Shown: piece by piece, positions 14,300-26,200 of the stretch
Position numbering within the stretch: the stretch's first letter is position 1
Layout: every line of letters starts with the position of its first letter
Assembly (NCBI RefSeq): GCF_040907265.1
Contig: NZ_JBFOHP010000002.1
Location: 4,464,001 to 4,528,000 of the forward strand
Reading direction: 5' to 3'
Origin: Streptomyces sclerotialus
GTDB lineage: Bacteria; Actinomycetota; Actinomycetes; Streptomycetales; Streptomycetaceae
Length of the DNA stretch: 64,000 bases
Made by a program: the position numbers and the translations under genes
The notes under the pieces: generated by a model
Told to the model about the DNA's origin: nothing
The model's database searches: none
The model's input: the letters and a program-made list of their open reading frames with translations, nothing else

Positions 14300-15745
14300 G
14301 TGACCCCCGCCACGTCCCCACCCCCCACGCCACCGGTCGTGACCGTCGTCGGGATCGGAGCCGACGGGTGGGCCGGCATCCCCGACGCGTCACGGGACGT
14401 CCTGCGGGACGCGGACGTGCTCATCGGCGGGCCGCGCCAGCTGGACCTGCTGCCGGCGGAATGCGCGGGGCGGCGGGTGCCCTGGCCGACCCCGCTGCGG
14501 CCCGCCGTGCCCGGGCTGCTCGCGGCGCACGCCGGCCGCAAGGTCGCGGTGCTGGCCAGCGGCGACCCCATGTTCTACGGCATCGGGCGGACGCTCACCG
14601 AAGTGCTCGGCGACGGAGCCGTCGGGACCGACGCGCTGCGCATCCTGCCGCACCCCTCCTCCGTCTCCTACGCCTGCGCCCGGCTGGGCTGGCCGGTGGA
14701 GGAGACCGAGGTCGTCACGCTCGTCGGCCGGCCGGCCGCGCAGCTGACCGCCGCCCTGCACGACGGCCGGCGGGTGCTCGTCCTCAGCGCCGGCCCCGGC
14801 ACCCCGGCCGAGGTCGCCCGGCTGCTGGGTGAGCAGGGCTTCGGGCCGACCCGGATGCGGGTGCTCGAACAGCTCGGCGGCGAGCGGGAGCGCGTCGTCG
14901 CCGGTACCGCTGAGGACTGGCAGCACCCGCCCGGGGACGCGCTGAACGTCATCGCCCTGGAGTGCCGCCGCGCCCCGGACGCACTGCGGCTGGGCGCCGT
15001 ACCGGGACTGCCCGACGACGCGTACGAGAGCGACGGACAGCTGACGAAGCGTCATGTTCGTGCCGCCACTCTGGGCGCGCTCGCGCCGGAGCCGGGTGAG
15101 CTGCTGTGGGACATCGGCGGCGGCTCCGGTTCGATCGCCATCGAGTGGATGCGGACGCACCGCTCGTGCCGCGCCGTCTGCGTCGAGCGCGACCCCGTAC
15201 GGGCCGAGCGCATCGGGCGCAACGCCGACCGGCTCGGCGTACCGGCCCTGCGGGTCGTCACCGGTTCCGCTCCCGAGGCGCTGGCCGAGCTGCCGAGCCC
15301 GGACGCGGTCTTCATCGGTGGCGGGCTGACCAGTCCCGGGCTGCTCGCGGCCTGCTGGGCGGCGCTGCCGCCGGGCGGCCGGCTGGTCGCCAACACCGTG
15401 ACGCTGGAGTCCGAGGCGCTGCTCGCCGACTGGTACCGGCGGCACGGCGGCGAGCTGGTACGGCTGGCCGTCGCGCACGCCGTGCCGGTGGGCGGCTTCA
15501 CCGGCTGGCGGCAGGCCATGCCGGTCACGCAGTGGGCCGTACGCAAGGCTCCGGGGCCGGCCCGGGACGCCGGCGTCCCTGCGGCAGGGACCTGGGCCGA
15601 ACCGGCGGGGGCCGGTGGCGCTCCCCGGACGGCGGCCGGGCCCGGCCGTGGGTCCGGAGGAGCCGCGGGTGCCCAAGGCACCGAAGGCCCCGAAGGACCT
15701 GACGGCACCGACGACTACGAAGCACTTCCAGGAGACGACAGATGA
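14300..15745 (+). CDS. cobL: Precorrin-6Y C5,15-methyltransferase (decarboxylating), CbiE-CbiT fusion
   Basis: Methylates C5 and C15 of the corrin ring and decarboxylates the C12 side chain. The N-terminal CbiE half (to about residue 205) starts VTVVGIGADGWAGIP and has the SGDPMFYGIG signature of tetrapyrrole methylases. The C-terminal CbiT half has the SAM-binding loop DIGGGSGSIAIEW. The last 70 residues are a Gly/Ala/Pro-rich tail not needed for either domain. The GTG start opens the B12 cluster. The stop overlaps cobM by 4 bases. Confidence 0.95.
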   Translation: MTPATSPPPTPPVVTVVGIGADGWAGIPDASRDVLRDADVLIGGPRQLDLLPAECAGRRVPWPTPLRPAVPGLLAAHAGRKVAVLASGDPMFYGIGRTLTEVLGDGAVGTDALRILPHPSSVSYACARLGWPVEETEVVTLVGRPAAQLTAALHDGRRVLVLSAGPGTPAEVARLLGEQGFGPTRMRVLEQLGGERERVVAGTAEDWQHPPGDALNVIALECRRAPDALRLGAVPGLPDDAYESDGQLTKRHVRAATLGALAPEPGELLWDIGGGSGSIAIEWMRTHRSCRAVCVERDPVRAERIGRNADRLGVPALRVVTGSAPEALAELPSPDAVFIGGGLTSPGLLAACWAALPPGGRLVANTVTLESEALLADWYRRHGGELVRLAVAHAVPVGGFTGWRQAMPVTQWAVRKAPGPARDAGVPAAGTWAEPAGAGGAPRTAAGPGRGSGGAAGAQGTEGPEGPDGTDDYEALPGDDR

Positions 15746-16491
15746 CCGTGTACTTCATCGGCGCGGGCCCCGGTGCGGCCGACCTGATCACGGTGCGCGG
15801 TGCCCGTACGCTCGCCGCCTGCCAGGTCTGCCTGTACGCGGGCAGCCTCGTGCCGCGCGAACTGCTCGCCGAGTGCCCGCCGGACGCACGCCTGGTGGAC
15901 ACCGCGCAGCTGAACCTCGACGAGATCACCGCCGAGGTGCTCCGTGCGCACGAGGCCGGGCACGACGTGGCCCGGCTGCACTCCGGCGACCCGTCGGTCT
16001 TCTCCGCCGTCGCCGAGCAGATGCGACGGCTGGACGCGGCGGGGGTGCCGTACGAGGTGGTGCCCGGCGTCCCGGCGTTCGCGGCGGCCGCCGCGGCGCT
16101 CAAGCGGGAGCTGACCGTGCCCACGGTCGGCCAGACGGTGATCCTCACCCGTATCGCGCAGCAGGCGACCGCGATGCCCGAGGGCGAGGACCTCGCCACT
16201 CTCGGGCGCAGCGGCGCCCTTCTGGTGCTGCACCTGGCCGCCCGGTACGCCGACCGCGTCGTCGAGGAGCTGCTGCCGCACTACGGGGCGGACTGTCCGG
16301 CCGCGGTGGTCGCGATGGCCAGCCGGCCCGACGAGGTCGTGCTGCGCGGCACCCTGGAGGACATCGCCGGCCAGGTGAAGGCCGCGGGGATCGTCCGTAC
16401 GGCCGTCATCATCGTCGGCCGCACGCTCGGCGCCGAGCAGTTCCGGGACAGCCACCTGTACTCGCCGGAGCGCGACCGCCACGTGTGCTGA
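15742..16491 (+). CDS. cobM: Precorrin-4 C11-methyltransferase
   Basis: SAM-dependent methylase of corrin C11. The 249-residue protein shows the family N-terminus VYFIGAGPGAADLITVRGAR, LHSGDPSVFSAVAEQ, and [20 protein letters not shown] coupling to cobL and the pathway context support the assignment. It faces cbiD tail to tail with a gap of 37 bases. Confidence 0.95.
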   Translation: MTVYFIGAGPGAADLITVRGARTLAACQVCLYAGSLVPRELLAECPPDARLVDTAQLNLDEITAEVLRAHEAGHDVARLHSGDPSVFSAVAEQMRRLDAAGVPYEVVPGVPAFAAAAAALKRELTVPTVGQTVILTRIAQQATAMPEGEDLATLGRSGALLVLHLAARYADRVVEELLPHYGADCPAAVVAMASRPDEVVLRGTLEDIAGQVKAAGIVRTAVIIVGRTLGAEQFRDSHLYSPERDRHVC

Positions 16492-16528
16492 GCCGTTACG
16501 TGTGCCGAGCCGCCACGTGTGCCGAGCC

Positions 16529-17695
16529 TCAGCGGGGAGTGCTGCGCCCCACCACGTTGCCCGCGCGGTCGATGCAGAGGACGTCGACCACCACGGGGGC
16601 GCCGCGCAGCACTTCGAGGGCCTGGTCCCGGGCGGTGGCCGCCACCAGGTCGCCCAGCGGGACCCCGGCCGCCGTACACAGGTGCAGCGCGGCGAGCCCG
16701 GTGTTGGCGGCGGCCACCTCCGTGGCCAGCGCCTCGTCCGCGCCGCCGCGGCGGGCCAGTTCGGCGAGGAAGCCCTTGTCGACCTGGGAGCGCGCCGAGT
16801 GCAGGTCCAGATGGCCGGCGGCCAGCTTGGAGAGTTTGGCGAAGCCGCCGCACACCGTCAGCCGGTCGACCGGGTGCCGTCGGACGTACTTCAGTACCGC
16901 GCCCGCGAAGTCGCCCATGTCCAGCAGGGCGTCCTCGGGCAGGCCGTACTCGGCCACCACCGTCTTCTCGGACGTCGAGCCGGTGCAGCCGGCCACGTGC
17001 GTACGCCCGGCCGCCCTGGCCACGTCCACGCCGCGCCGGATCGAGTCGATCCACGCCGAGCACGAGTACGGCACGACGATGCCGGTCGTCCCGAGGATCG
17101 ACAGGCCGCCCAGGATGCCGAGCCGCGGGTTCCAGGTGGAGCGGGCGATCTCCTCGCCGTGGTCCACCGACACGGTGAGCTCGACGTCCGCAGCGCCGCT
17201 CCCGTGACGCGCGGCGACCTGCGCCAGGTGGTCGCGCATCATCTGGCGCGGCACCGGATTGACGGCGGGCTCTCCGACGTCCAGGGGGAGCCCGGGACGG
17301 GTCACCGTTCCCACGCCGGGCCCGGCCTTGAAGACGACACCGGAGCCGGGCGGCAGGGCGCGTGCGGTGACGCGGACGAGTGCGCCGTGGGTGACGTCGG
17401 GGTCGTCCCCCGCGTCCTTGACCACGCCCGCCGTGGCACGCCGCCCGGACGGCCCGCCGGAAGGCCCTCCGGGCGCCTCCCCGGGCCGGTCCTCGGTGAG
17501 CTCCTCGACCGCCAGCGCGAAGGCCGGGGTCTGGCCCTTGGGCAGCGTGATCGTCACCGGGTCGGGGAAGTCGCCGGTCAGCAGCGCGGTGTAGGCGGCG
17601 GTGGCCGCCGCCGTGGCGCAGGCACCGGTCGTCCAGCCGGGCCGCAGACCGGTGTGCTTGAGTTGGGCGCTGCGCCCGCCACTCGCCTCACTCAT
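16529..17695 (-). CDS. cbiD: Cobalt-precorrin-5B C1-methyltransferase CbiD
   Basis: Methylates C1 of the ring. The signature LRPGWTTGACATAAATAA sits near the N-terminus, followed by the TITLPKG stretch. NPRLGILGGLSILGTTGIV and the GDFAGAVLKYVRR region mark the family core. CbiD belongs to the anaerobic-type route and here replaces CobF, although CobG and CobN are oxygen-route proteins. Its start codon lies only 11 bases from the divergent cobK start and lacks an obvious ribosome binding site. Confidence 0.94.
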   Translation of the reverse strand: MSEASGGRSAQLKHTGLRPGWTTGACATAAATAAYTALLTGDFPDPVTITLPKGQTPAFALAVEELTEDRPGEAPGGPSGGPSGRRATAGVVKDAGDDPDVTHGALVRVTARALPPGSGVVFKAGPGVGTVTRPGLPLDVGEPAVNPVPRQMMRDHLAQVAARHGSGAADVELTVSVDHGEEIARSTWNPRLGILGGLSILGTTGIVVPYSCSAWIDSIRRGVDVARAAGRTHVAGCTGSTSEKTVVAEYGLPEDALLDMGDFAGAVLKYVRRHPVDRLTVCGGFAKLSKLAAGHLDLHSARSQVDKGFLAELARRGGADEALATEVAAANTGLAALHLCTAAGVPLGDLVAATARDQALEVLRGAPVVVDVLCIDRAGNVVGRSTPR

Positions 17696-17706
17696 GGAAG
17701 GACCCG

Positions 17707-18489
17707 ATGCACACCGCGACGCACGTACTGATCCTCGGCGGTACGACAGAGGCCCGCCGTCTCGCCGCGGTGCTGGCCGACGGCCCGCTCGCCGGCGGCG
17801 TACGCGTGACGACCTCCCTCGCGGGCCGCGTCGCCCGCCCCGTGCTGCCGCCGGGCGAAGTACGCATCGGCGGCTTCGGGGGTGCGCAGGGGCTGGCCCA
17901 GTGGCTGCGCGCGCACCAGGTGGACGTGCTCATCGACGCCACCCATCCTTTCGCCGGAACGATCAGTTTCAACGCGGCGACGGCCGCGGGCATGGCCCAT
18001 GTTCCCCTCTTGGCGCTGCGCCGGCCCGGCTGGGTCCCCGGGGACGGCGACGACTGGCACCCGGCCGGATCACTCCAGGAAGCCGCCGCACTCCTCCCGG
18101 AGCTGGGCCGGCGGGTCTTCCTCACCACCGGCCGGATGGGGCTGGGCGCCTTCGCGGACCTCACGGACCTGTGGTTCCTCATGCGGTCCGTCGACGCGCC
18201 CGAAGGGCCGTGCCCGCCCCGCATGGAGGTGCTGCTCGACCGCGGCCCGTTCACCCTGGAGGGCGAGCGGGCGCTGCTCCGCGAGCACCGGATCGACGTC
18301 GTGGTCACCAAGGACAGCGGGGGAGCGGCCACCGCGCCCAAGCTCACCGCCGCCCGTGAGGCCGGTGTCCCGGTGGTCGTCGTCCGCCGCCCGGCGGCCC
18401 CGGCCGGCGTCCCCGTGGTGGACGACCCCGGACAGGCCGCCCACTGGCTGGCGGAGCACCTGGGCGGGGCCTTCCGTACGGAGGCGTGA
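17707..18489 (+). CDS. cobK: Precorrin-6A reductase (CobK/CbiJ family)
   Basis: Reduces the macrocycle using NAD(P)H. The 260-residue protein begins with the nucleotide-binding HVLILGGTTEARRLAAVLAD. DATHPFAGTISFNAA and VVTKDSGGAATAPKL are typical CobK segments. GGAAGGA at 17697-17703 is the ribosome binding site and occupies most of the 11-base gap to cbiD. It ends tail to tail with cobIJ. Confidence 0.94.
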   Translation: MHTATHVLILGGTTEARRLAAVLADGPLAGGVRVTTSLAGRVARPVLPPGEVRIGGFGGAQGLAQWLRAHQVDVLIDATHPFAGTISFNAATAAGMAHVPLLALRRPGWVPGDGDDWHPAGSLQEAAALLPELGRRVFLTTGRMGLGAFADLTDLWFLMRSVDAPEGPCPPRMEVLLDRGPFTLEGERALLREHRIDVVVTKDSGGAATAPKLTAAREAGVPVVVVRRPAAPAGVPVVDDPGQAAHWLAEHLGGAFRTEA

Positions 18490-18528: not shown

Positions 18529-20115
18529 TCAGCCCTCCGGGTACCGCCGCGGCGTCCAGACGAGCTGCTCGCCGTTCCCGCGCCGTACGGCCTGCGTCTG
18601 CGAGGAGCCGACGATCAGGAGCGTGCGCATGTCGACCTCGGCCGGGTCCAGGTCGGCCAGCCGTACGATGCGGACGCTCTCCTCGGGGCCGCCGATGTCG
18701 CGGCCGAGTACCACCGGGGTGTCCGGCGCCCGGTGCTCCAGGAGCAGTTCGCGGGCCTTGCCGACCTGCCAGGTCCGGCTGCGCGAGCCGGGGTTGTAGA
18801 GCGCCAGCACCAGGTCGGCCGAGGCCGCGGCGCCCAGCCGTTCGGCGATGACCTCCCAGGGCTTGAGCCGGTCCGACAGCGAGATCGTCGCGTAGTCGTG
18901 GCCGAGCGGGGCGCCCGCGCGGGCGGCCGCGGCGTTCGCGGCGGTCACCCCGGGCAGCACCCGTACGGGCACGTCCGCGTACTCCGGTTGTGCGGCCACC
19001 TCCAGGACGGCGGTCGCCATGGCGAACACCCCGGGGTCACCGCCCGAGACGACGGCCACCCGCCGCCCCCGCCGCGCCAGGTCCAGGGCGAACTCGGCAC
19101 GCTCGGACTCGACCTTGTTGTCCGAACCGTGCCGCAGCTGGCCCGCCCGTACCGGTACCCGGTCCAGGTAGGTCGTGTAGCCGACCAGGTCGGTGGCGTT
19201 GTCCAGGGCGCCGCGCGACTCGGGCGTCAGCCAGGGGGCGCCGGCCGGTCCGGTACCGACGACCGTCACCTCGCCGCCCTCAGGGGCCGGGACCGCGGGC
19301 CCCGTGTCCACGCGCGACGGCAGCACGGCCACCGAGAAGTACGGCACCGACTCCGGGTCCACGTCCGCCAGCGCCGCGGTGCGCTCGCCGTCCATGTAGG
19401 CCCGCTCCACGTACCGCGCGTCCGCCAGCCGGCCCGCGCGCTCCAGGGCGCGGCGCACGGTCGGGAACGTACGGCCGAGCTTCATCACGACCGCCGAGTC
19501 GGCGGCGGCCAGCCGGGCCGTCAGCTCGTCCTCGGGCAGCGTGCCGGGCACGATCGTCAGGGTCTCCTCGGCCTCGACGAGCGGCGTGCCGAGCCGGGCC
19601 GCCGAGGCGCTCACCGAGGTGATCCCGGGGACGACCTCGGTCGGGTAGCGGTGCGCGAGCCGCTTGTGCATGTGCTGGTACGAGCCGTAGAACAGCGGGT
19701 CGCCCTCGGCGAGTACGGCGACCGTGCGGCCCGCTTCGAGGTGCGCCGCCAGCCGGGCCGCGGCCTCCTCGTAGAAGTCGTTCAGGGCGCCCCGGTAGCC
19801 GCCGGGGTGATCCGTCGTCTCGACCGTGACCGGGTAGCGCAGCAGCTCCTCGATGTGGTCGGGCCGCAGGTACCGCTCGGCGATCGCCCGGGCGCGGGAC
19901 CGGCCGTGCCGGGCGCTGTGGTACGCCACCACGTCCGCCTCCGAGATGACCTCCACGGCCCGCAGGGTCAGCAGGGACGGGTCGCCGGGACCCAGCCCGA
20001 CCCCGTACAGCTTCCCGGCGCCCACGGCCCTCTCAGCGGCCTCGGTGCCCCCGCTGTTCTCGATGTGCCCGGCGGCCCCGGTGCTCATGGCGGCGCCTTC
20101 CGTCGGGGTGCTCAT
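18529..20115 (-). CDS. cobIJ: Fused precorrin-2 C20- / precorrin-3B C17-methyltransferase
   Basis: Two SAM-dependent tetrapyrrole methylases in one 528-residue chain. The CobI half begins near residue 35 ([20 protein letters not shown]) with [19 protein letters not shown]. The CobJ half begins near residue 283 ([18 protein letters not shown]) with [19 protein letters not shown] and [14 protein letters not shown]. CobIJ fusions are common in actinobacteria. The ATG would overlap the intact cobH stop as ATGA. The extended N-terminus of about 33 residues could mean a later start. Confidence 0.94.
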
Positions 20116-20761
20116 TCCGCGGTGCTCGCAATCGCGTTGACGGCGGCCGCGGCCATCGCGCTGCCGCCGCCGCGCCGCCCCGCACCACCAGGTAGTCCAG
20201 GCCCAGCGCGTTCGCCGCCAGGGCGTCCTTCGACTCGGCGGCGCCGATGAAGCCCACCGGTATGCCGAGGACGGCCGCCGGGCGCGGCGCGCCCTCCGCG
20301 ACCATCTCCAGCAGGCGGAACAGGGCGGTCGGCGCGTTGCCCACAGCCACCACCGAGCCCTCCAGCAGGCCCCGGTCGCGCCACAGTTCCAGCGCGGCGG
20401 CGCTGCGCGTGGTGTCCAGCTTGGCGGCCAGCTCCGGTACGGCCGGGTCCGACAGGGTGCACACCACGTCGTTGTCGGCGGGCAGCCGCTTGCGGGTCAC
20501 GCCGCTGGCGACCATCTGCGCATCGCACAGGACGGGCGCGCCGGCCCGCAGCGCGGCCCGGGCCCGGCCGATGACCTCCGGGCTGAAGGCGAGGTCGCGC
20601 ACGAGGTCGGTCATGCCGCAGGCGTGGATCATCCGCACCGCGACCTGGGAGACGTCGGCGGGCAGCCCCGCGAGGTCCGCCTCCGCGCGAATGGTGGCAA
20701 AGGACTGGCGGTAGATCTCCGCCCCGTCCTTCTCGTAGTCGAACACTGTGCTCTCGCTCAT
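20112..20761 (-). CDS. cobH: Precorrin-8X methylmutase CobH, frameshifted near its 3' end
   Basis: Moves the C11 methyl group to C12 to give hydrogenobyrinic acid. The protein starts [20 protein letters not shown] and has the catalytic-His segment MIHACGM. As written, the frame leaves the family after LDYLVVRG at about 20177 and runs on in Arg-rich sequence to 20033, inside cobIJ. Reading the -1 frame from there restores [18 protein letters not shown] and a stop at 20112-20114 that overlaps the cobIJ ATG by 4 bases. One missing C in a GC-run explains this. The coordinates given are those of the restored gene. It overlaps cobG by 4 bases. Confidence 0.88.
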
Positions 20762-22191
20762 CTCGTCGCTGTGGTCGCTGTGGTCGTGCGCGCTGCCGCC
20801 ACGGCGACGGCAAGGTCGTCGGCCCCCGCCACGTCCTCCGGCTCCGCCACGCGACCCGGTGACCCGTTGACGTGTGAAGACTCGTTCATGTGAGGGGCGC
20901 CGTCCACGACAGTACGCAGCCCCTCACCGCGCAGCGATACCTGGTACCCGTCTCCGGTGGCGACGACGTCCACCCACTCACCCTGAGGGTGGCCGCAGCG
21001 GCGCTCGCAACCGGACCAGTGGACGGCCCGGCCGCCACCCGCACCCAGCGCGGTGGCGGCGTCCGCCCGTACGTCGGCCAGTGACTTGGCGCACCCGGGG
21101 CGGCCGATGCACGCACCGACGCCGTACCAGGGCGACGCCGGGTCGGTGATCAGCCCGGCGGCCGCCAGCCCGGCGAGCCGGTCAGCGGCGCGGGCGCGGC
21201 CGAAGCCGGGCAGGACCGCGCCGCGCCAGGGGGTGAGCCGCAGTTCGCCGCTGCCGTCCTCGCGGGCCGCGGCCACCAGGTGCCGCCACTGCGCCACCGT
21301 GAGCCGCCCCAGCGGGGCGACCACGGAGAGGGCCGCCGTGCCACCGGGGCCGTGCACCGTCCCCGGGGCGGGCGCGGGCCCCGAGGGGAGGCCCGCCGCG
21401 ACCGGATGCGTCACGGGGACGCCGGCCGCCTCCAGGCGCCGAGCCGTCTCCCGGAGCAGCGACCCCGCGCTCCCGAAGCCACCGCTCCCGAAGCCATCGC
21501 TCCCGAAGGCGTCACCGCCTCCAGGCAGATCGCTCACCCGCCACGCCTTCGTGCCGCTCGCCGCCGCCGCTTCCAGGAAGGTCTCGGCGGCCGTCAGCGC
21601 GGCCCGGGCCGCGTACGCGCCGGTCACCCGCAGTGCCGCCGGGGCCTGCCAGACGAAGAGCAGTGCGTCCCCGCCGGCCAGGGCGACCAATGTCACATCC
21701 GGGCCGAGCGCGGAAACGTCACCGCGGCCGTCGTCCAGGGCGAACAGGAAGCGCCCGGACAGCCCGGTCGCGGCCTCGCTCGCGCAGAGCAGCCGGTCCA
21801 GCTCCCGAAGCCACGGCTGGACGTCCGTACGGCCCGATCCGTCCAGCCCGGAGAGCGGCGTGGCCACGATGTTGCGGACCCGTTCATGGCGGTACGAAGG
21901 GAGCAGTCCGGCCGCGTCGAGCAGCGCGGCGAGATCCCCGCCACAGTCGCCGTCCAGGCCTCGCACCTGCACGTTCCCGCGCGAGGTGAGGTGCAGTGCG
22001 CCGTCACCGAGGCGCTCCGCCGCCACCGCGAGCGCGTCCGCCTGACCGGCGGTCAGCACGCCTCCGGGGATGCGCACGCGGGCCAGCGCGCCGTCGTCCG
22101 CGGCGTGCAGCCGCAGCGTGCCCGGGCAGGCGTCACCGCGAACCCGTATGGGGGGTTCGTCCCGGGATGGTGGGTTGGTCGCCGTGGGCAT
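20758..22191 (-). CDS. cobG: Precorrin-3B synthase CobG
   Basis: Oxygen-dependent Fe-S enzyme, related to sulfite/nitrite reductases, that contracts the ring in the aerobic pathway. Two ferredoxin-like halves are visible, with [12 protein letters not shown] early. The four cluster cysteines lie in [10 protein letters not shown] and [15 protein letters not shown]. An inserted [13 protein letters not shown] repeat sits mid-protein. Start at 22191 ([14 protein letters not shown]); an ATG 12 bases upstream is possible. ATGA overlap with cobH makes cobG-cobH-cobIJ one operon. Confidence 0.93.
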
Positions 22192-22261
22192 GGCGGCGAG
22201 CATACCGACCCCGTCCCGGCCGTCCGCCCCACGCCAGGGAGGTGGCCCTTACTATGCTCAC

Positions 22262-22400
22262 GGCGGACCATCCGGTCCGTCACCATCGCCGGCGACGGCG
22301 ACAAGGGGAGGAAGCCCGGTGCGAATCCGGCGCGGTCCCGCCACTGTGAGCCCGGCCCCGGCGGCCGGGTGAGCCAGGAACTCCCTTTCCTTTGCTCTCG
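22262..22400 (+). promoter_or_regulatory. Cobalamin (B12) riboswitch upstream of cobN
   Basis: The conserved core is visible: AAGGGGAGGAAGCCCGGTGC, then GAATCCGGCGCGGTCCCGCC and ACTGTGAG (22321-22350). The B12-box equivalent GAGCCAGGAACTCC follows at about 22371-22384. It lies in the cobN leader on the plus strand and should repress cobN when adenosylcobalamin is abundant. Outer boundaries are estimated. Confidence 0.92.
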
Positions 22401-22471: not shown

Positions 22472-25400
22472 ATGCTGCCCACGTCCGGGGAGAACGCCCC
22501 CCAGTCCGGCGAGACCGTCCCGCAGACCGGGAACTCGCAGTCCGGAGATCCGCAGTCCGGGGAGGCCGCTCCCCGTCAGATCCTGCTCCTGTCGACCTCC
22601 GACACCGACCTGCTCAGCGCACGCGCGGCCGGCGGCCCGGTCGGGTACCGCTTCGCCAACCCCGCCCGGCTCGACCTCGACGAGCTGCCCGCCCTGCTGG
22701 ACGGCTGCGACCTGGTCGTCGTACGCCTCCTCGGCGGCATCCGCGCCTGGCAGGAGGGCCTGGACCAGCTGCTCGCCGACGGCCGCCCGGTCGTCGTGCT
22801 CACCGGCGAACAGGCCCCCGACGCCCAGCTGATGGCCGCCTCGACCGTCCCGGTCGGCATCGCCGCCGAGGCGCACGCCTACCTCGCGCACGGCGGCCCG
22901 GCCAACCTGGAGCAGCTGGCCCGCTTCCTCTCCGACACCGTGCTGCTCACCGGCCACGGCTTCGAGCCGCCCGCCGCCGCGCCCTCCTGGGGGCCGCTGG
23001 AGCGCACGGCCCGTGAGGACGTCGCCGCGGACGCCCCCACAGTGGCGGTGCTCTACTACCGCGCCCACCACATGAGCGGCAACACCGCCTTCGTGGACGC
23101 GCTGTGCGGCGCCGTCGAAGAGGCGGGCGGCCGCCCGATGCCGCTGTACGTCGCCTCGCTGCGCGCCCCCGAGCCGGAGCTGATCGACGAGCTGCGCGCC
23201 GCCGACGTGATCGTCACCACGGTGCTCGCGGCGGGCGGCACCAAGCCCGCCACGGCCTCGGCCGGCGGCGACGACGAGTCCTGGGACGCGGGCGCCCTCA
23301 CCGGCCTCGACGTACCGGTTCTGCAGGCGCTCTGCCTGACCGGTTCGCGCGCCGACTGGGAGGAGAACGACGAGGGCGTCTCGCCGCTGGACGCGGCCAG
23401 CCAGATCGCCGTGCCCGAGTTCGACGGCCGTCTGATCACCGTCCCGTTCTCCTTCAAGGAGATCGACGAGGACGGCCTCCCGGCGTACGTCGCCGACCCC
23501 GAGCGGGCGGCGCGGGTCGCCGGCACCGCCGTACGCCACGCCCGGCTGCGCCACATCGCGCCCGCCGACAAGCGTGTGGCGCTCGTGCTGTCCGCGTACC
23601 CGACCAAGCACTCGCGCATCGGCAACGCGGTCGGCCTGGACACCCCGGCCTCCGCCGTCGAGCTGCTGCGCCGCCTCCGGGAGGAGGGGTACGACTTCGG
23701 GCCCGAGGAGGAGATCCCGGGCCTGGTCTCGGGCGACGGCGACGAGCTGATCCGCGCGCTCATCGAGGCCGGCGGCCACGACCAGGACTGGCTCACCGAG
23801 GAGCAGCTCGCCCGTAACCCCGTCCGCATCCCGGCCGCCGACTACAAGCGCTGGTACGCGACGCTCCCCGCCGAGCTGCGCAAGGCCGTCGAGGAGCACT
23901 GGGGCCCGGCGCCCGGCGAGATGTTCCTCGACCGCAGCCGCGTGAGCCAGGGCGGCGACCCCGAGGGCGACATCGTGCTGGCCGCCCTGCGCCGCGGCAA
24001 CCTGCTGATCCTCATCCAGCCGCCGCGCGGCTTCGGCGAGAACCCGATCGCGATCTACCACGACCCCGATCTGCCGCCCTCGCACCACTATCTGGCCGCG
24101 TACCGCTGGATCGCGGCCACCCAGGACGACGGCGGTTTCGGCGCGGACGCCATGATCCACCTGGGCAAGCACGGCAACCTGGAGTGGCTGCCCGGCAAGA
24201 ACGCGGGCCTCTCCGCCGCCTGCGGCCCCGACGCCGCCCTCGGCGACCTGCCGCTCATCTACCCGTTCCTGGTCAACGACCCGGGCGAGGGCACCCAGGC
24301 CAAGCGCCGCGTCCACGCCACCCTCGTCGACCACCTCGTCCCGCCGATGGCCCGCGCCGACTCCTACGGCGACATCGCGCGCCTGGAGCAGCTGCTCGAC
24401 GAGTACGCGCAGATCTCCGCCATGGACCCGGCCAAGCTGCCCGCCATCCGCGCGCAGATCTGGACGCTGATCCAGGCCGCCAAGCTCGACCACGACCTGG
24501 GCATGGAGGACCGCCCGGACGACGACGGCTTCGACGACTTCCTGCTGCACGTCGACGGCTGGCTGTGCGAGGTCAAGGACGCGCAGATCCGTGACGGCCT
24601 GCACGTGCTCGGCGGCGCGCCGACCGGCGCCCCGCGCGTCGACCTGGTCCTCGCGATTCTCCGCGCCCGCCAGATCTGGGGCGGTACCTCCGCCCTGCCC
24701 GGCCTGCGCGAGGCGCTCGGCCTGGACGAGTCGGCGGCGACCCGTACGACCGCGGACGCCGCCGAGGAGCAGGCCCGCGCGCTGGTCCAGGCGATGGAGG
24801 ACGCAGGCTGGGACCCGGCAGCGGTGGCGGACGTCGCGGCGGACCACGGTCAGCAGGTCGCCGACATCCTCGACTTCGCCGCCCGCGAGGTCGTCCCGCG
24901 CCTGGCCGGCACGACGGCCGAGCTCGACCACGTCGTGCACGCCCTGAAGGGCGGCTTCGTACCGGCGGGCCCGTCCGGCTCGCCTCTCCGAGGGCTGGTC
25001 AACGTCCTGCCGACCGGCCGCAACTTCTACTCGGTCGACCCCAAGGCCGTGCCCTCGCGCCTCGCCTGGGAGACCGGCCAGGCCCTGGCCGACTCCCTCC
25101 TGGAGCGCTACCGCACCGATAACGGCGACTGGCCCACCTCCGTCGGCCTGTCCCTGTGGGGTACGAGCGCGATGCGCACCGCCGGTGACGACGTCGCCGA
25201 GGCCCTCGCGCTGCTCGGCGTCCGCCCCGTGTGGGACGACGCCTCCCGCCGCGTCACCGGCCTGGAGCCCGTCCCGCTCGACGAGCTGAACCGGCCCCGC
25301 ATCGACGTCACGCTGCGCATCTCCGGCTTCTTCCGGGACGCCTTCCCGCACACCATCGGCCTGCTGGACGACGCGGTACGCCTGGTCGCGGGCCTCGACG

Positions 25401-26200
25401 AGCCCGCCGAGCAGAACTTCGTACGCGCACACGCCCAGGCCGACCTCGCCGAGCACGGTGACGAACGCCGCGCCACCACCCGTATCTTCGGCTCCCGCCC
25501 GGGGACGTACGGCGCGGGCCTGCTCCAGCTGATCGACTCGCGCGACTGGCGCACCGACGCCGACCTCGCGGAGGTCTACACGGTGTGGGGCGGCTACGCG
25601 TACGGCCGTGGTCTGGACGGCCGTTCGGCCCGCGAGGAGATGGAGACGGCGTACAAGCGCATCGCCGTCGCCGCGAAGAACACCGACACCCGCGAGCACG
25701 ACATCGCGGACTCCGACGACTACTTCCAGTACCACGGCGGCATGGTCGCCACCGTACGGGCGCTGCGGGGCACGGCCCCCGAGGCGTACATCGGCGACTC
25801 CACCCGCCCTGAGACGGTGCGTACGCGCACCCTCGTGGAGGAGACCTCGCGCGTCTTCAGGGCGCGGGTCGTGAACCCCAAGTGGATCGAGGCGATGCGC
25901 CGCCACGGCTACAAGGGCGCCTTCGAGCTCGCCGCGACGGTCGACTACCTCTTCGGGTACGACGCCACCACCGGCGTGGTCGCCGACTGGATGTACGACA
26001 AGCTCACCCAGGCCTACGTGCTGGACCCGGAGAACCGCGCGTTCCTCCAGGAGGCCAACCCCTGGGCGCTGCACGGGATCGCCGAGCGCCTCCTGGAGGC
26101 GGAGTCGCGCGGCATGTGGGCCGAGCCCGATCCGGCCGCGATCGAAGCGCTCCGCGAGATCTTCCTGGAGACGGAGGGCGAGCTGGAGGGCGAGGGCTGA
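22472..26200 (+). CDS. cobN: Cobaltochelatase subunit CobN
   Basis: Large subunit of the ATP-dependent aerobic cobaltochelatase that inserts cobalt into hydrogenobyrinic acid a,c-diamide. The 1242 residues match the CobN/magnesium chelatase H family, with segments such as KRVALVLSAYPTKHSRIGNA, AMIHLGKHGNLEWLPGKNAG and GTYGAGLLQLIDSRDWRTDA. About 35 Ser/Gly-rich residues precede the family start ILLLSTSDTDLLSARA, so translation may begin later. No CobS/CobT partner is in the window. It is the riboswitch-controlled gene. Confidence 0.95.
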   Translation: MLPTSGENAPQSGETVPQTGNSQSGDPQSGEAAPRQILLLSTSDTDLLSARAAGGPVGYRFANPARLDLDELPALLDGCDLVVVRLLGGIRAWQEGLDQLLADGRPVVVLTGEQAPDAQLMAASTVPVGIAAEAHAYLAHGGPANLEQLARFLSDTVLLTGHGFEPPAAAPSWGPLERTAREDVAADAPTVAVLYYRAHHMSGNTAFVDALCGAVEEAGGRPMPLYVASLRAPEPELIDELRAADVIVTTVLAAGGTKPATASAGGDDESWDAGALTGLDVPVLQALCLTGSRADWEENDEGVSPLDAASQIAVPEFDGRLITVPFSFKEIDEDGLPAYVADPERAARVAGTAVRHARLRHIAPADKRVALVLSAYPTKHSRIGNAVGLDTPASAVELLRRLREEGYDFGPEEEIPGLVSGDGDELIRALIEAGGHDQDWLTEEQLARNPVRIPAADYKRWYATLPAELRKAVEEHWGPAPGEMFLDRSRVSQGGDPEGDIVLAALRRGNLLILIQPPRGFGENPIAIYHDPDLPPSHHYLAAYRWIAATQDDGGFGADAMIHLGKHGNLEWLPGKNAGLSAACGPDAALGDLPLIYPFLVNDPGEGTQAKRRVHATLVDHLVPPMARADSYGDIARLEQLLDEYAQISAMDPAKLPAIRAQIWTLIQAAKLDHDLGMEDRPDDDGFDDFLLHVDGWLCEVKDAQIRDGLHVLGGAPTGAPRVDLVLAILRARQIWGGTSALPGLREALGLDESAATRTTADAAEEQARALVQAMEDAGWDPAAVADVAADHGQQVADILDFAAREVVPRLAGTTAELDHVVHALKGGFVPAGPSGSPLRGLVNVLPTGRNFYSVDPKAVPSRLAWETGQALADSLLERYRTDNGDWPTSVGLSLWGTSAMRTAGDDVAEALALLGVRPVWDDASRRVTGLEPVPLDELNRPRIDVTLRISGFFRDAFPHTIGLLDDAVRLVAGLDEPAEQNFVRAHAQADLAEHGDERRATTRIFGSRPGTYGAGLLQLIDSRDWRTDADLAEVYTVWGGYAYGRGLDGRSAREEMETAYKRIAVAAKNTDTREHDIADSDDYFQYHGGMVATVRALRGTAPEAYIGDSTRPETVRTRTLVEETSRVFRARVVNPKWIEAMRRHGYKGAFELAATVDYLFGYDATTGVVADWMYDKLTQAYVLDPENRAFLQEANPWALHGIAERLLEAESRGMWAEPDPAAIEALREIFLETEGELEGEG

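Follow-up and report, generated by a model that had tools for sequence, protein, structure and literature searches.

A frame break in cobH of a Streptomyces sclerotialus genome assembly, with an isolated assembly error as the favoured reading

The cob cluster and the deposited cobH gene

The window, i.e. the whole stretch of 64,000 nucleotides analysed from contig NZ_JBFOHP010000002.1 of Streptomyces sclerotialus, harbors a cobalamin biosynthesis (cob) cluster between positions 14300 and 26200. On the minus strand, cobG (20758..22203; intact, TIGR02435 at 245 bits vs. a cut-off of 234.8) adjoins cobH, which is deposited as an ORF of 242 residues (20033..20761) encoding a precorrin-8X methylmutase (PF02570, NF006136) with an aberrant C-terminus. 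The next gene on this strand is cobIJ (18529..20115), encoding the precorrin-2 C20- and precorrin-3B C17-methyltransferase and intact as judged by family models; cobM, cbiD, cobK and a CbiE-CbiT (CobL-like) gene, positioned at 14300-18489, all pass their family models as well. Divergent from cobG on the plus strand is the cobaltochelatase subunit gene cobN (22472..26200; TIGR02257 at 1145 bits vs. a cut-off of 822), with a cobalamin riboswitch upstream (22308..22383, plus strand; RF00174 at 38.9 bits, gathering threshold 31.5). A scan for sigma-70-like sites yielded no promoter inside the region, and no terminator was found there. Neither cobIJ nor cobG showed any frame break against the six relatives tried for each. 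CobG itself is only about 59-64% identical to its six relatives and contains a small repeat of 16 residues; cobIJ has a first ATG at 20115 and another, also in frame, at 20088, and carries 20-30 extra N-terminal residues compared to several relatives.

Within cobH, residues 1-195 (20177..20761, minus strand) are in the frame of the family, as supported by family profiles, the CobH sequences in the PDB and the alignment of relatives. Pfam PF02570 (CbiC) matches residues 15-196 of the ORF (E 2.3e-60; 204.1 bits vs. a cut-off of 22.5), NCBIfam NF006136 matches residues 7-198 (319.1 bits vs. a cut-off of 276), and the PDB sequences can be aligned only as far as residues 198-201. Beyond the break, the ORF continues for 46-47 residues unrelated to the family, with its last 83 bases (20033..20115, minus strand) lying inside cobIJ. 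The true CobH tail is located directly downstream of the break in another frame (20112..20176, minus strand), retaining 17 of 18 consensus residues with a score of 75, a value reached by none of 5000 base shuffles (best shuffle, 33). In addition, the G+C content at the third codon position of the cobH frame falls from 0.90-1.00 before the break to 0.60-0.70 after it. The frame break is therefore confirmed as a real feature of the deposited sequence, and the first-pass annotation was right in describing a break that spoils the C-terminus, with the family match ending at residues 196-201 and the tail found in another frame. Both of the ATGA overlaps that it had described are also present, one formed by the stop of the restored tail and the start of cobIJ (20115-20112) and the other between cobG and cobH (20761-20758); cobH genes ending in ATGA or GTGA are found in relatives too. 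The genome entry G000 matches the window exactly at cobH but, as the same assembly, provides no independent evidence.

Apart from its tail, the gene product shares 74-84% identity with 14 relatives across the alignment, in which the conserved N-terminal and central CobH motifs are retained. Compared with the known family (NF006136; PF02570; PDB 3e7d and 1f2v/1i1h), cobH of the window shares residues 1-195, the position between cobG and cobIJ, the ATGA overlaps and scores above the cut-offs; in contrast, where the family has a GRRGGSA loop and a last helix, the deposited frame has the 46-47 unrelated residues.

Size of the lesion

The change resides in a GC-rich, GGC-repeating stretch (20158..20181, minus strand) that would fall within the stem of a predicted hairpin and contains no homopolymer longer than four bases. 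In relatives, the corresponding loop reads V-R/H-G-R-R-G-G-S-A. To count it, we examined 161 relative loci, some genomes being represented twice and the window's own locus set aside; excluding 17 distant loci (L015-L031, save L030, which reads EKGGSA at this position), GRRGGSA was in frame in 144 of 144 CobH-type loci, 138 parsed by pattern and six that the pattern had missed and that were checked separately. In the deposited cobH, both this loop and the C-terminal helix are out of frame.

The segment running from the CGG codon to the ATG comprises 29 bases in the window vs. 27 in relatives, and a frameshift-aware aligner placed a single net +2 event at 20172 against all seven relatives tried, although its costs prefer one event over two, so that this placement does not settle the mutational path. 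The first-pass annotation had attributed the break to one missing C near 20177. An added C indeed restores the frame, but the product then reads GRRGGGSAM with a surplus glycine, whereas all 144 loci have two glycines; taking out two bases can instead yield GRGGGSAM, and neither version occurs in relatives. RGRRGGSAM was not obtained with any of the insertions of one base or deletions of two bases that were tried. A single missing C was therefore rejected as the full cause, since the extra GGC would stay unexplained and no CobH-type relative examined has the three-glycine product. Compared with relatives, the lesion is a net gain of two bases that takes no fewer than two events to reach from the closest relative sequences (three loci, at two events each); one lost base together with one extra GGC is, for instance, a path that would produce it.

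Comparison with the genus and with the rest of the assembly

Using a full-length relative CobH of 213 residues as query against 295 genomes of the same genus (the window's own included), we obtained matches in 280 and none in 15. Two CobH/CbiC lineages split the genus: 173 of the 280 matching genomes, the window's own among them, have the close CobH type, and 107 have only a distant CbiC. The C-terminus was compared across the 173 CobH-type genomes, drawing on the best 150 of the 280 matches and on a repeat query of the other 23 CobH-type genomes together with the distant G135; genus labels were taken from the relatives' records, and most of the 80 relatives kept (of 568 confirmed) are Streptomyces. 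In 172 of 173 genomes the alignment reaches residue 211 or 213 of 213, ending at 211 in three (G052, G064 and G177), while in the window's genome it stops at residue 201. Aligning CobH of related genomes, a check proposed at the outset, thus found all 172 others reaching the C-terminus in one frame, and the break is peculiar to this genome. Literature searches, in sources available in part, returned no description of this cobH frameshift. A second cobH might have rescued the defect, but this was rejected, as no further CobH/CbiC was found in the genome at E <= 0.001.

To gauge the assembly, we surveyed frame breaks over 1.2 Mb of G000 and 400 kb each of the relatives G015 and G013; G012 was dropped as a comparison region because it is hardly syntenic (5-6 orthologues). 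Earlier frameshift-aware surveys omitted queries longer than 900 or 1300 residues and matches shorter than half the query, thereby missing one break, and a split-hit survey, being insensitive to short tails, did not flag cobH against G015. The final survey used wider filters: queries over 2000 residues were to be excluded, none was in fact dropped for length, and 154, 97 and 103 were dropped for low identity or score. Counting breaks past residue 110 with two query genomes behind them, G000 had one in 149 gene spans besides cobH, G015 none in 120 and G013 one in 126; events up to residue 110 were disregarded as mostly over-long start sites, a rule that could hide true breaks near gene starts. 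The G000 break is found at C2:4548071, about 20 kb past the end of the window, where a gene of about 1100 residues, in one frame in both relatives compared (G015 and G013), has a net -1 change in a run of five C.

Internal events backed by a single query were also seen. Those in G000 fell at two places of one 1258-residue query and three of one 871-residue query, and were ascribed to the queries because both break in G015 too. G015 had four more places from three queries (3555147, 3628563, 3628652 and 3726999), besides cobH matched by the window's own CobH, and G013 had three (4604985, 4861606 and 4865581), of which 4865581 mirrors the G000 break at 4548071. The assembly is neither plainly bad nor spotless.

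Error or mutation, and the consequences for CobH

The choice posed by the first-pass annotation, assembly error vs. real mutation, was the right question to ask, and we incline, with modest confidence, toward an isolated assembly error. An error in the GC-rich, GGC-repeating stretch would have left a net surplus of two bases in the deposited cobH; in the cell, the gene would be read to the usual family end, with its stop in the ATGA overlap, followed by cobIJ. We infer that the base change is absent from the living strain. Several observations are in line with this reading: 1) the C-terminus is reached in all 172 other CobH-type genomes; 2) the tail is undecayed, the remaining cob genes of the window satisfy the models of their families and two metH genes are kept, the intact tail and whole neighbors suggesting that the event is either recent or not real; 3) a second frame break is present at 4548071, which raised the weight we give to error, and the cobH stretch is GC-rich and able to form a stem. 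Assemblies commonly retain a few indels each, and it is this, together with the lack of cobH loss in the 172 other genomes, that makes us lean toward error. Against it, the assembly is not error-ridden, with one other two-query break in 149 spans; the lesion is not a lone homopolymer drop, as two events or more separate it from the closest relative sequences; and the predicted fold does not stand out from shuffles in strength (z -0.85, 42/200 as good).

Alternatively, the break may be a real and recent loss-of-function mutation, which we regard as possible but rather less than even. The GGC-rich stretch would have gained a net two bases through slippage or templated misrepair, depriving CobH of its loop and helix and stopping synthesis at precorrin-8X, with the strain living on imported cobalamin or on MetE and other cobalamin-independent enzymes. 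A lesion of two events is more readily explained by mutational rearrangement than by a dropped base and speaks somewhat for a real change; there is also no general surplus of frame breaks in the assembly and no second CbiC/CobH found in the genome, and the loss would be survivable in principle given metE and a pair of ribonucleotide reductase large subunits. Elsewhere, cob genes do suffer loss mutations: according to PMC12713380, roughly 30% of the clinical isolates of M. tuberculosis carry a frameshift in cobB, which, like cobH here, is one broken gene within an otherwise kept cobalamin pathway; the cobB break, however, spans many isolates and the cobH break a single assembly. Speaking against a real mutation are the absence of C-terminus loss from the 172 other genomes, the lack of further decay in cobH (tail 17/18) or in the neighboring cob genes, and the two metH copies, which point to a cobalamin-using cell.

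The catalytic residue of CobH is a histidine, and residues 1-195 of the window's protein retain the conserved family positions, including H46. If the change were real, CobH might still fold and turn over with an altered or truncated C-terminus, in as much as the shifted tail begins with GGAAAAA, which loosely resembles the family GGSAMAA and is set over it by MAFFT. We consider this very unlikely, since the GRRGGSA loop is retained in 144 of 144 loci and since AlphaFold models, built on small alignments of 14-15 sequences, differ in this very segment: a relative's CobH (mean pLDDT 84.1) has a C-terminal helix at residues 198-209 with a last full block at 91, whereas the window's CobH (mean 70.2) has no structure after residue 196, with residues 197-242 all below 50. 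CobH as written lacks both the conserved loop and this confidently predicted helix, and is probably inactive.

Programmed recoding, in which ribosomes would shift -1 (or +2) at GGGGCGG to make full-length CobH, appears extremely improbable. Recoding is known in the wider family of the pathway, as the passages of PMC9227772 on chlD describe programmed frameshifting that may yield two chelatase subunits from some genes. Both cases involve a frame change within a tetrapyrrole/cobalamin gene, but the chlD signal is described there as highly conserved, in contrast to a cobH break in one of 173 genomes. The 172 other genomes align through the site in one frame, there is neither an in-frame X_XXY_YYZ heptamer nor a homopolymer over four bases, the structure predicted by folding without pseudoknots does not surpass 200 shuffles, and a -1 shift would still yield GRRGGGSA with an extra glycine. 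Hence the earlier suggestion that the strain may rely on frameshifting found no support, and a programmed frameshift at cobH was rejected. The broader proposition that cobalamin is still made, either with CobH of altered C-terminus or through a strain-specific form of recoding, as yet undescribed, in the GGC-rich stretch, is likewise most improbable.

By its gene content, this genome appears equipped both for cobalamin use and, as far as methionine is concerned at least, for doing without it, as it has metE, two full-length metH genes (G000:C2:1923758-1927195 and 1448823-1452227) and the two ribonucleotide reductase large subunits. A third, partial metH match with an internal TGA is located at 7231480-7232283.

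In PMC7242693, CobH is described as carrying out the last step to hydrogenobyrinic acid, from precorrin-8X. If the lesion is real, cobalamin synthesis would halt at this intermediate in a producer that is complete but for this one lesion, offering a small natural experiment on losing B12 synthesis. If, as we favor, it is an assembly error, the record needs correcting, or else CobH will be annotated as broken or odd and the strain wrongly called a B12 non-producer. In either case the frame break is ordinary and the gene a known one, and neither an error nor a mutation would be surprising. As to the surroundings, lysC and the cob cluster are about 14 kb apart in this genome, compared with about 137 kb in G015, about 146 kb in G004, about 215 kb in G006 and G012 and 3.1 Mb in G013, and these differing distances indicate that the cluster has moved.
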